Positions 25,813-30,053 of a stretch of DNA of 40,348 bases are shown in pieces. Both the position numbers and the translations under genes were made by a program. Below the pieces are notes generated by a model. The model made no database searches. It was not told the DNA's origin and was given only the letters and a program-made list of their open reading frames with translations. Origin of the DNA: Mariprofundus sp. (lineage in GTDB: Bacteria > Pseudomonadota > Zetaproteobacteria > Mariprofundales > Mariprofundaceae). Positions within the stretch are counted from its first letter, which is position 1. Each line of letters begins with the position of its first letter. Location of the stretch: assembly GCA_021772775.1 (NCBI GenBank), contig JAJFLH010000013.1:1-40348 (forward strand), in the 5' to 3' direction.

Positions 25813-26210
25813 TCAAGCTTCATGCGATACATTTTCGAGATCGACAGAGATGATTTTTGAGATACCGGGGTGTGGCATCGATACTCCAATCACTTGATCG
25901 GCTTTTTGCATGGTGATTTTGTTGTGTGAAATAGTTAAAACTGCACCCTGTCTGATATCTCCCGCACCACATCGTTAGAACGGGCCACATTGGCATCATC
26001 AAGCGGTGCATCGACTTCATCACGCACACAGAATGGCGCCGGCTTAATTTTGAAAATGGAGAATACCAGAGCCACTGTAGTCAGTGCTTTTTCGCCGCCG
26101 GAAAGCAAGGCTCATACCTTGTAATCGTTTACCAGGAGGCTGTGCGATGATCTCGACTCCAGCAGTTAAGGTATTGTCACCATCTAATTTTAGTTCAGCC
26201 CGGCCAGCTC
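25813..26210 (-). pseudogene. smc: smc relic: C-terminal fragment of chromosome segregation SMC protein, two frameshifts
   Basis: Read on the minus strand from about 26205, three frames together give [28 protein letters not shown], then LSGGEKALT (ABC signature), [16 protein letters not shown] (Walker B; normally [13 protein letters not shown]), and finally TISHNKITMQKAD (H-loop) through SKIISVDLENV to a stop at 25813-25815. This is the last ~130 residues of a ~1150-1200-residue SMC. One base is gained near 26106 and one lost in a T-run near 25937-25940. The rest of the gene is missing. A working copy is expected elsewhere in the genome. Confidence 0.88.
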
Positions 26211-26394: not shown

Positions 26395-28443
26395 TTATGG
26401 ATTCAGTTTATCCCTGATGATGCTGCTCAATATATCGAAATTCACCGGCTTGCTAAGTATGCAGCAGTTTTGTAACTGCTTATCGCCTGCAAGCACATCC
26501 TCTTTATCGTATCCGGTTAAAAATATCAGAGGTAAATGAGGTGATATTTCCCTGATCTGTTTGGCCAGAGGCATACCTCCACAGTGGGGCATTACCACGT
26601 CCAGCAGAGCAAGTTTAATCTCCTGCTGATGGTTTTTGAATATTTCAATGGCTTGCAGCCCATCTTTTGCCTGCACTACTTTACAACCCATAGACTCTAG
26701 CACCTCAGCCATGGTCTCACGCACAATGGTTTCATCATCAGCAAGGAGAATGAGCTCTCCGTGCCGTTCAATTATGTCTGTTTTATGCTCATCTTTAGCA
26801 CTCATAGCCTCTTCAGTTAAAGGGATATAAATGTGAAAGGCTGCCCCTTCTCCTTGTTGGCTATCCACTTCAATAAAACCATGATGTGTTTTGACCATAC
26901 CAAATACCATGGATAGGCCAAGGCCGGTCCCCTTACCCTGCTCCTTGGTGGTGAAAAAAGGCTCAAACAGGTGTTCGATCTGTTTTTTAGGGATGCCGCA
27001 GCCATTATCTTTTATGCTGATGTGGGCATAAGGATAGATTTCAAAGTCGGGTCGTTTTTCCAGCCATATAGCATCGGCAAAAAAAGTGTCCACATTGATC
27101 GTAATAGATGGTTCATGCATAGATTCAACGGCATCACGCGCATTGTTGAGCAAATTCATCAGGGCTTGATGAATCTGAGTACTATCACCTTTGATCATAA
27201 GCTCTTCAGCGCAAATATTCTGTTTGATGGTGATGTTTTCAGGTATTGAAAATTGCAAAAGTAGAAGTGCTTCTTGCAGGAATGATCTCAGGGGCATGAC
27301 TTTCATACTGACTCTGTCTTTACGGGCGAAGGTGAGGAGTTGCTGAATCATATCAGCGGCGCGGAAAGAGAGCTGTTCAATATTATTCAGTTTATTGGAT
27401 AATTCAGGCATCTCCTGAGCACGACGTTTGGCCAGATGCAGGTTGGCTGTGATGCCCGCCAGCATATTGTTGAAGTCGTGCGCAATACCACCAACCAGAG
27501 TGCCAATCGCCTCCATTTTTTGAGCTTGATGGAACTGTTTTTCCATATTCTGCTGTTCGGTGATATCCTGGTGATAGCCGACGAAATGAGTGATTTCACC
27601 ACTATGATCCATAATCGGTGCAATGGACAACATGGCGGGATAAAAGGAACCATCCTTGCGTTTTTCGACTACCGTTGAGCTCCAGGCTTTGCCGCTGCTG
27701 ATGGTTTGCCACAGCTTTTGATAAAATGCTGCATCCTGATTGTCGCTTTTAAGTATTCTAGGGGTTTGGCCAATGACTTCATCGATGCTGAAGCCGGTCG
27801 TATCCATGAACGACCTGTTCACGTATTCAATGCTCCCACTTCGATCGGTGATAAGAATGGCTTCCGGTGCCTGCTCAACCGCTTCGCTTAACTTTCTCAG
27901 CTTGAGTGTTCGTTCTGCCACACGCTGTTCAAGTTCGTTCAGAATACCTTTATGAGCGCTGATATCTCTGATCGTGGCCATAATTTGGGGATCACCTGTA
28001 TTCAATTCCGAAAGGTTGAGTTCGATGGGGAAGGTATGCCCATCCTGATGTAAACCTTCCAATTCAATACTCTGATTTGCCATCAGTTTATCAGTATGGT
28101 CTGTATAGTGACTAAAACCATGCTGATGCTGTTGACGTAAATACTCAGGGATCAGGGTGGTGATCGACATGCCGGGCCATGATTCCAGTGGGTAACCAAA
28201 GATGCGTTCTGCAGCCGGATTGCTTTGTTGTATGATGCCATTCTGATCGGCAATGATAATGGCATCAAATGCACTTTTAATGATTTGACGATGGAGGTTA
28301 TCACTTACCTTTAAAGCATGCTGGGAATCGGCCAATTGGCTACTGGCTGTTTGCCATTGCGTACGAATGCGATTTGATTGCGCTAGTGCCTCTTCAAGCA
28401 GCGCTATTTGCTGCGATAGGCCAATATCATCTTGAATACTCAT
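26395..28443 (-). CDS. Cytoplasmic PAS-PAS hybrid sensor histidine kinase
   Basis: The 682-residue protein has no membrane helix. In order: coiled coil (~8-50), PAS (~52-165), PAS (~187-298), HisKA with His322 (GGIAHDFNNMLAG), HATPase (N-box NLLNNARDAV ~430-439, DNGCGIP, GTGLGLSM), and a receiver with Asp615 (LALLDVVMPH). The kinase core closely resembles that of the membrane hybrid kinase at 11676. It begins on the base right after the stop of the ODP-type gene, so both are one transcript and the ODP protein is its likely input partner. No response regulator with an output domain is adjacent. Confidence 0.9.
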   Translation of the reverse strand: MSIQDDIGLSQQIALLEEALAQSNRIRTQWQTASSQLADSQHALKVSDNLHRQIIKSAFDAIIIADQNGIIQQSNPAAERIFGYPLESWPGMSITTLIPEYLRQQHQHGFSHYTDHTDKLMANQSIELEGLHQDGHTFPIELNLSELNTGDPQIMATIRDISAHKGILNELEQRVAERTLKLRKLSEAVEQAPEAILITDRSGSIEYVNRSFMDTTGFSIDEVIGQTPRILKSDNQDAAFYQKLWQTISSGKAWSSTVVEKRKDGSFYPAMLSIAPIMDHSGEITHFVGYHQDITEQQNMEKQFHQAQKMEAIGTLVGGIAHDFNNMLAGITANLHLAKRRAQEMPELSNKLNNIEQLSFRAADMIQQLLTFARKDRVSMKVMPLRSFLQEALLLLQFSIPENITIKQNICAEELMIKGDSTQIHQALMNLLNNARDAVESMHEPSITINVDTFFADAIWLEKRPDFEIYPYAHISIKDNGCGIPKKQIEHLFEPFFTTKEQGKGTGLGLSMVFGMVKTHHGFIEVDSQQGEGAAFHIYIPLTEEAMSAKDEHKTDIIERHGELILLADDETIVRETMAEVLESMGCKVVQAKDGLQAIEIFKNHQQEIKLALLDVVMPHCGGMPLAKQIREISPHLPLIFLTGYDKEDVLAGDKQLQNCCILSKPVNFDILSSIIRDKLNP

Positions 28444-29250
28444 CTAGCTTAAATTGGGATAACTAATGTCAGTGCCGCATCGCAATGTGCGTAAATAATC
28501 GAGTGCATCAGCAATATGCTCTTGGGGGATGATAGAGCCGTGCTGAGGCAGGATAGCATCAACTTTAAGCCCATCTAATTTATCGATGAAACCTCTTGCC
28601 GCGATATTGGAGGCCATGTAATCCATATGAAACATATCCATCTGTATACGATGATGTGTGAAATCAATAACAGTTGGTGACCATGAGGTCATCAGAGCAG
28701 CCCAGATGTCACCGGAAAACAGAAAATGGGACCTATCATCATAGGTCGTGAAAGCGGCTGGAGAATGCAGGAATGGGGCGGTGATGAAGCGCAGCTGTTG
28801 TCCGGATTCGAATCGAAGAGTTGGCTCTTCTTCGATATCTTGCCAATTATAATCATGCGCACCGAAATGCGGTAGTAGCACCTGAGCACGGGGAGATGTA
28901 TAAACCACGCAGTCCGGGCAGAGCTCAAGCCAGTCCACCATTGATGCCGCTACATCGGGATCCTGATGGCAGAGAATCATGCCGGTGACCGCTGTTGGAT
29001 CAATGATTTGAGCCACTCGGGATTTAACCTGATCGAAATAATTGCGTGAGCCGGGATCAACAAGGATAACGTCTTTGCCATTCACAATAAGATAAACATT
29101 ACAGCGGAAGATAGTGTTTTCGGTAATACCCAGCCAGTAGATTGAATGTCCAGCTTGCTGAAAAAGAAGTGTTGGCTGTTGCATATTCACTTCAACGTGA
29201 TGAAGTATGATGTTGTTTTGCTCTTGCATAGTCGCCTGCCGTGTTGCCAT
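28444..29250 (-). CDS. ODP-type diiron protein with metallo-beta-lactamase fold
   Basis: The 268-residue protein resembles the ODP (oxygen-binding diiron protein) branch of the flavodiiron/FprA fold. Probable iron ligands are H95, D97, D99 (CHQDPDV), H162 (PFLHSPAAF), D181 (FSGDIWAAL) and H237 (PQHGSI). As in ODPs and unlike hydrolases, HxDxD is followed by Val rather than His. There is no flavodoxin domain, so NO or O2 reduction by the usual route is unlikely; reversible O2 or NO sensing is more likely. In Treponema a related ODP feeds CheA. Here it is fused by operon structure (zero-base gap) to a PAS hybrid kinase. Confidence 0.82.
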   Translation of the reverse strand: MATRQATMQEQNNIILHHVEVNMQQPTLLFQQAGHSIYWLGITENTIFRCNVYLIVNGKDVILVDPGSRNYFDQVKSRVAQIIDPTAVTGMILCHQDPDVAASMVDWLELCPDCVVYTSPRAQVLLPHFGAHDYNWQDIEEEPTLRFESGQQLRFITAPFLHSPAAFTTYDDRSHFLFSGDIWAALMTSWSPTVIDFTHHRIQMDMFHMDYMASNIAARGFIDKLDGLKVDAILPQHGSIIPQEHIADALDYLRTLRCGTDISYPNLS

Positions 29251-29323
29251 ATTACTACATTAGCATGAAATGGATGGATAAGGTGAAAAGAGTATTATCA
29301 TGCAAGTTGCGTGCCACTACAAT

Positions 29324-29369: not shown

Positions 29370-30053
29370 TTACGCCTTACTTTTATTCAAATGATTTATG
29401 CATAAAAAGCTGATGAGACAAGCTGTAAAGCTGGAGGCGACGATCATGTATAAGATTGTCAATTGTGCTACTGCAGCATCGATAGCGGTAGCTCCAGCTA
29501 AAAGCATGCCAACGAAAATGCCTGGCATATGCACCAGCCCCACCAATCGCAGCGTGTCGAGAGTCGGAATCATTGCCGTTTTCAGACCGTCCCCGACGGG
29601 GCCACCGGATTTCAGGCGTTCAAACATGATTGAAATCGCATTCATGCCATTGGCTGCAATCATGCTGCCCAGCGGTACCAAGGTACGTGTGTCATCGGCG
29701 ATTGAACCGGCCACAGTTAACCAAGGCAGGGTGACCAGGCAGGCGCAGACAAGTCCGATAGCGCTTGCTGCCCAGGTGCTGCGAGCACCATCGTAATGAC
29801 TGGCGCTATTGTGGCCGGCCAGCAGGCAAAATCCGACGATGAACAGAGCTTGAGCCCAATGTGACTGGATATCGAAAATCCAGTGCAACACCAAGGCCAG
29901 TCCCAACAGTTGCAAAAGGCCCCGCCCGGAAGCGATCAGCATGCGGCGTGATAAGCCCAATTGTTCGCGATGAGCCCAATAGGCAACAGCTGCGATGAGC
30001 AACCATGCCGCAAACAGTTTAATTAAGGTGTCGGTGATATGGGCATCAATCAT
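29370..30053 (-). CDS. FetB/YbbM-like membrane permease (UPF0014), shortened
   Basis: The 227-residue membrane protein with about seven hydrophobic segments matches the UPF0014 family (E. coli FetB, linked to iron export). The signature PLGSMIAANGMNAISI and the block AMIPTLDTLRLVGLVHMPGIFVG are clear. Between them the family normally has about 30 more cytoplasmic residues with an LGATP coupling motif; here only a short SGGPVGDG-type turn remains. No FetA-like ATPase gene is adjacent. It lies 26 bp after the methyltransferase gene and may be cotranscribed. Transport direction and substrate are unknown. Confidence 0.8.
   Translation of the reverse strand: MIDAHITDTLIKLFAAWLLIAAVAYWAHREQLGLSRRMLIASGRGLLQLLGLALVLHWIFDIQSHWAQALFIVGFCLLAGHNSASHYDGARSTWAASAIGLVCACLVTLPWLTVAGSIADDTRTLVPLGSMIAANGMNAISIMFERLKSGGPVGDGLKTAMIPTLDTLRLVGLVHMPGIFVGMLLAGATAIDAAVAQLTILYMIVASSFTACLISFLCINHLNKSKA

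Follow-up and report, generated by a model that had tools for sequence, protein, structure and literature searches.

A diiron protein of the ODP family encoded with a soluble hybrid histidine kinase in Mariprofundus sp.: a candidate oxygen/iron sensing unit

Genes and features of the locus

The window analysed here, a stretch of 40,348 nucleotides from Mariprofundus sp., contains two abutting genes on its reverse strand, to which all coordinates of features given below refer. The first (28444..29250) encodes a protein of 268 aa belonging to the ODP family (oxygen-binding diiron proteins), as judged from its profile match, its PDB matches and its predicted fold; the second (26395..28443), recognised as an open reading frame with domain matches, encodes a soluble hybrid histidine kinase of 682 aa. 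The stop codon TAG of the ODP gene (28444-28446) touches the ATG of the kinase (28443, offset 0), as had been stated in the first-pass annotation of this DNA.

Upstream of the ODP gene, an exact match to the sigma-54 consensus (TGGCACG-N4-TTGCA, 29301..29316) has its -12 GC 52 nt ahead of the ATG of the ODP; the site reads TGGCACGCAACTTGCA (29316-29301(-)) and is matched over its full length. The exact pattern occurs in only two copies in the 3.12-Mb genome (reversed-pattern control: 0), and RpoN is encoded in the same genome. The second copy (L206:1501-1516) precedes a porin-like ORF by about 80 nt. Judging from the promoter-like sequence, transcription of the ODP-kinase pair probably needs sigma-54; a search upstream of the orthologues found no such site, which was present in the window only and should therefore be regarded as local wiring. 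An Rfam scan found no RNA elements, and scans for sigma-70 promoters and terminators gave no more matches than shuffled sequences. Next to the pair, a divergent FetB/UPF0014 membrane protein, possibly involved in iron efflux, is encoded at 29370-30053 (-), although with 93 bits against an NCBIfam cut-off of 410, and the gap after the kinase holds a frame-broken remnant resembling an SMC C-terminus (25938-26190 (-)).

The diiron protein and its metal site

Family membership of the 268-aa protein is clear from its PF19583 (ODP) score of 208.3 bits (curated cut-off 27.2). Its top sequence matches in the PDB are both solved ODPs (6qrq, E=7e-47; 6qnm, E=2e-36), and its predicted model agrees with the ODP of T. 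maritima (TMt 0.90, rmsd 1.8-2.4 Å) and with the peroxo form of the T. denticola ODP (TMt 0.90-0.92), the range across the ODP structures of both species being 0.85-0.92. The Lactamase_B profile scores 52 bits, and in the domain profile search the protein gave MBL matches only and no flavodoxin domain. Both the assignment to the ODPs and the lack of a flavodoxin domain, proposed earlier from the letters alone, are thus borne out.

According to the alignments, the metal ligands comprise H95, D97 and D99 of an HQDPD motif (28954..28968), H162 (28765..28767), D181 (28708..28710) and Q236-H237 of the sequence PQHG (28540..28545), whereas V100 stands at the place of the third His of the MBL/FDP motif. 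The protein thereby carries the whole ODP ligand set, H-x-D-x-D-(not His), H, D and Q-H (PQHG). The Gln is an ODP-specific ligand, and Q236 deserves attention because in the T. maritima ODP the Gln of motif 5 substitutes for the absent third His of motif 2 (PMC7785958). The six ligands named in the first-pass annotation (H95, D97, D99, H162, D181, H237) are all present, but its list was incomplete, as it missed Q236. None of these seven residues varies among the 110 non-redundant ODPs compared. For HQDPD and a section of the H162 region this invariance is partly built in, since both also served as search patterns, while D181, Q236 and H237 lie outside the patterns with which these ODPs were collected.

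Flavodiiron proteins (FprA, ROO, flavorubredoxin) have the MBL diiron core in common with the window ODP, but as PDB matches they follow far behind the solved ODPs (E-values from 6e-12). They combine a flavodoxin domain with HxExDH, whereas the window ODP has HxDxDV, the PQHG Gln and no flavodoxin, and hence does not have the make-up of an NO/O2 reductase.

The partner kinase

The kinase has the domain order PAS-PAS-HisKA-HATPase-RR, preceded by an N-terminal helix (residues 9-61, 28261..28419) supported by a profile, a 30-sequence alignment and a model, in which Q22 is invariant. PAS1 (27949..28293) is FixL-like by profile and by sequence match to the structure database, and PAS2 (27550..27897) finds its closest solved relatives by sequence in the sensor protein 3ewk and the NifL PAS domain 2gj3. 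The HisKA domain (27316..27504) with the phospho-acceptor H322 (27478-27480) and the C-terminal receiver domain (26416..26751) with the acceptor D615 were located by profile and alignment, the HATPase_c domain (26815..27189) by profile match. With H322, N430, D479/G481 and D615 all in place, the protein qualifies as a hybrid histidine kinase, and a hydropathy analysis of its 682 aa found no transmembrane-like segment. The partner therefore is, as had been suggested, a soluble two-PAS hybrid kinase with intact catalytic residues, and its domains are those of a two-component protein rather than of a chemoreceptor (MCP) without sensor domain.

The PAS domains raise the question whether the kinase senses by itself, PAS1 holding heme like FixL or PAS2 holding FAD like NifL, while the ODP would be an accessory that consumes O2 or NO and in this way tunes the signal or shields the kinase. 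PAS1 indeed matches FixL structures (E about 1e-14) and carries a His at the heme-ligand position (H200 of FixL), and PAS2 matches 2gj3 with E=5e-23 and 3ewk with E=3.5e-28. However, this His is absent from PAS1 of the kinase orthologues L035-L038, in three of them via a deletion, and by alignment the position of FixL R220 is not Arg. An accessory enzyme is also hard to reconcile with ODPs lacking the flavodoxin electron donor that flavodiiron enzymes use for turnover. Since the orthologues lose the His, we treat a heme-PAS as main sensor as a rival explanation only, and an unlikely one; from their sequence, the PAS domains may nevertheless carry a cofactor of their own and contribute a heme or FAD input.

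Conservation of the pair

An orthologous PAS-PAS-HK-RR kinase follows the ODP in six other Zetaproteobacteria (G017, G030, G003, G001, G013, G029), with ODPs 60-70% identical to that of the window and a gap to the kinase of -31 to +6 nt; the flanking genes differ among these pairs where long contigs permit comparison. Other close ODPs are followed by a PAS-HD-GYP protein (G011, G020, G062, G030) or, in G003, fused to GGDEF in a protein of 837 aa. Beyond this group, HK, HK-RR, GGDEF, GGDEF-EAL and HD-GYP partners are found in Sulfuricurvum, Sulfurimonas, Thiodiazotropha, Thiohalophilus, Thiobacillus, Gallionellaceae, Methylococcales and Bacteroidales, and most ODPs sharing 50% or more identity with that of the window, from several phyla, stand directly before a signalling protein or are fused to one. 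A survey of 110 non-redundant ODPs, biased toward relatives of that in the window, assigned the adjoining or fused part to HK in 39 cases, to GGDEF/EAL in 27, to MCP in 7, to HD-GYP in 6, to roadblock in 5 and to PAS only in 2; in 24 nothing was recognised. The 110 include 23 fusions. Three close ODPs (L066, L072, L082) have no partner adjoining.

That an ODP enzyme merely happens to lie beside one of the many kinases of this genome (about 110 HATPase_c matches) would be conceivable from their number, yet it is hardly credible for a pair that is kept across many genomes with different flanks, occurs as natural fusions and is joined by a common helix; chance adjacency was rejected on the conservation of the pair. 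The first-pass annotation had itself made conservation the test of its proposal, and the outcome favours the pair.

A common N-terminal helix in the partners of ODPs

The earlier reading of an ODP with a two-component partner was right as far as it went, but overlooked that one N-terminal helix of about 50 residues is common to HK, GGDEF, GGDEF-EAL and HD-GYP partners of ODPs. Its approximate consensus is L..RI..LE.KNKLLEE.L.Q.ERIR......A...LK, the Gln (Q22 in the window kinase) being invariant in 30 sequences. This segment also occurs in the ODP-GGDEF fusions L040 and L077, separated from the preceding ODP by a linker, and AlphaFold renders residues 300-364 of L040 as a single helix (pLDDT 80-96) after a disordered stretch. 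Likewise, residues 9-61 of the window kinase form one continuous helix in a read-through model; the alignment rows used for folding were in-frame read-throughs. The structure models show the helix and no ODP-kinase interface; it should be noted that the window model joins both proteins by one residue, with TAG read as Q, and is therefore uninformative on docking geometry.

The link of this helix to ODPs is near-exclusive. A profile built only from non-zetaproteobacterial partners (A3) found the window kinase as its sole match in the own genome (E=1.2e-7; next E=0.044), and among 78 Zetaproteobacteria it gave 12 matches at E<=1e-4, 11 of which adjoin an ODP or are fused to one. The exception, in G026, is a kinase with the helix and no ODP at the locus; it is preceded by a gene of the same kind (736-751 aa) as the one that precedes the ODP in the congener G028, and the ODP of G026 probably was lost or is absent from the assembly. 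With the full profile (A5), 15 matches at E<=1e-4 were obtained in 398 Pseudomonadota, 13 of them either immediately following an ODP gene or fused to it, the remaining two being G026 and G061, whose match neighbours an ODP-GGDEF fusion in a different order. As A5 contains most of its own matches, the only independent test among them is G098, the sole match outside Zetaproteobacteria, and there an ODP overlaps a helix-PAS-GGDEF gene by 4 nt. Conversely, the ODPs at least 50% identical to that of the window and without a helix partner are those of G023-G025 (56-58% identical), which have an RR-PAS-HK-RR gene upstream and no helix on the kinase; the G028 locus ends at a contig edge.

Two partners, L056 (236 aa) and L061 (239 aa, Sulfuricurvum), consist of the helix and GGDEF only, so that no sensor other than the ODP is visible there. 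The arrangement of helix and ODP consequently needs no PAS, a further point against self-sensing through PAS domains, and these minimal partners make the mechanism directly assayable.

In a tree of the 110 ODPs, those with helix partners group together, with 5 changes where shuffles gave 25.8 and 0 of 500 shuffles was as low, while the output class switches at least 6 times among them and 17 times overall. The close ODPs L060, L064 and L083, for example, have helices 79-83% identical and the outputs HK, GGDEF-EAL and HK, respectively. Close ODPs with near-identical helices thus occur with different outputs, from which it follows that ODP and helix travel together as outputs change, and this is our main reason for reading the helix as the contact and transmission element. 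Whether the ODP with a standard docking helix amounts to a plug-in sensor, in which one soluble diiron O2/Fe subunit would recognise a conserved connector of some 50 residues on unrelated and exchangeable outputs, is in our view about evenly balanced.

Proposed mechanism and relation to known systems

We favour, with a probability of roughly 0.68, the reading that the ODP and kinase genes are an operon encoding a single oxygen/iron (redox) sensing unit, in which the ODP docks on the N-terminal helix of the kinase. The ODP probably is a detachable oxygen/iron sensor and not an enzyme: by analogy with its Treponema relatives, it would act as the sensory subunit, binding O2 at a flavin-free diiron site in an Fe(II)-dependent manner and without turnover, and the soluble kinase would be the transmitter. 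The same analogy suggests that the ODP modulates the kinase via residues 9-61, where it would sit on the helix running into PAS1. Any change in the metal centre would then alter the helix and, along the PAS-HisKA axis, raise or lower autophosphorylation of H322, from which the phosphoryl group could pass to D615 or to an unlinked partner. The diiron-peroxo form of ODP reportedly destabilises phospho-CheA.

The model for this reading is the ODP of Treponema, an oxygen sensor for chemotaxis that is genetically coupled to an MCP homologue without a sensing module (PMC7666581) and interacts with its receptor (PMC6978683). The ODPs of T. denticola and T. maritima (TDE2498; PDB 6qnm, 6r9n, 6qrq, 6qwo) are of the same family, fold and ligand set, including the PQHG Gln, and are likewise separate sensor subunits whose genes accompany that of a signalling partner. 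The known partner, however, is a chemoreceptor without sensor domain (TDE2496) and acts on CheA, whereas in the window it is a cytoplasmic PAS-PAS hybrid kinase with an N-terminal helix. Kinases and cyclases coupled to hemerythrins or globins (e.g. AfGcHK/NmpU) similarly bring an iron-based O2 input to kinase, GGDEF and HD-GYP outputs, but their sensors are fused domains of other folds, while the ODP usually is a separate subunit. FixL and NifL resemble PAS1 and PAS2, respectively, but the FixL-type heme-ligand residue is not conserved among the kinase orthologues.

According to the TREND paper (PMC7319448), Muok 2019 had already observed that ODP genes can share an operon with other signal-transduction genes and that ODPs can be fused to domains of this kind, and the pairing as a class is thus known in outline since then. 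Compared with the ODP groups of that study, as far as they are described there, the partner helix, its specificity, the swapping of outputs and the window pair are added here. A literature search that covered mainly papers available without subscription found no description of a helix common to the partners, of its use for prediction or of the zetaproteobacterial system. If our reading is right, a diiron O2 sensor known from chemotaxis would extend into two-component and c-di-GMP control, the helix would serve as a sequence tag predicting kinases and cyclases driven by an ODP, and bacteria that need to position themselves where Fe(II) meets O2 would have a testable candidate O2/Fe(II) sensor.

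A variant in which the ODP mainly is an Fe(II) sensor or iron-loading switch, so that metal occupancy and not O2 sets kinase activity, appears rather improbable to us. In its favour, Muok 2019 (as cited in PMC7785958) presents the Treponema ODP as a sensor of both Fe[II] and oxygen, Fe(II) oxidation is a trait of the host group (PMC3179512), and the divergent FetB/UPF0014 gene lies upstream of the ODP. In the relatives compared, however, a FetB-like neighbour was not seen next to the ODP. Many ODP relatives, moreover, are not known as iron oxidisers, which also counts against a mainly iron-sensing role.

Other ODP loci

A second ODP is encoded in the own genome (L003:7250-9578, contig C11), between two roadblock/LC7-like proteins and followed by a protoglobin-like protein, which brings a diiron and a heme O2 binder together in one cluster; the roadblock-ODP-roadblock order is kept in many Mariprofundus-group genomes. 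A small protein of about 90-106 aa follows the ODP in Nitrospirae, Nitrospinota and a Heimdallarchaeote (L102:3420-3692, L104:6747-7019, L124:743-1063). Two further types of ODP fusion were seen (L101, L106, L108, L109; L115, L130, L132, L133): in Sulfurimonas, a histidine kinase is directly fused to the ODP with a response regulator adjoining, and in Clostridia and others, the ODP is part of a fusion with a long protein that gives GGDEF- and receiver-like matches, and a protein of about 960-1000 aa is encoded after it.
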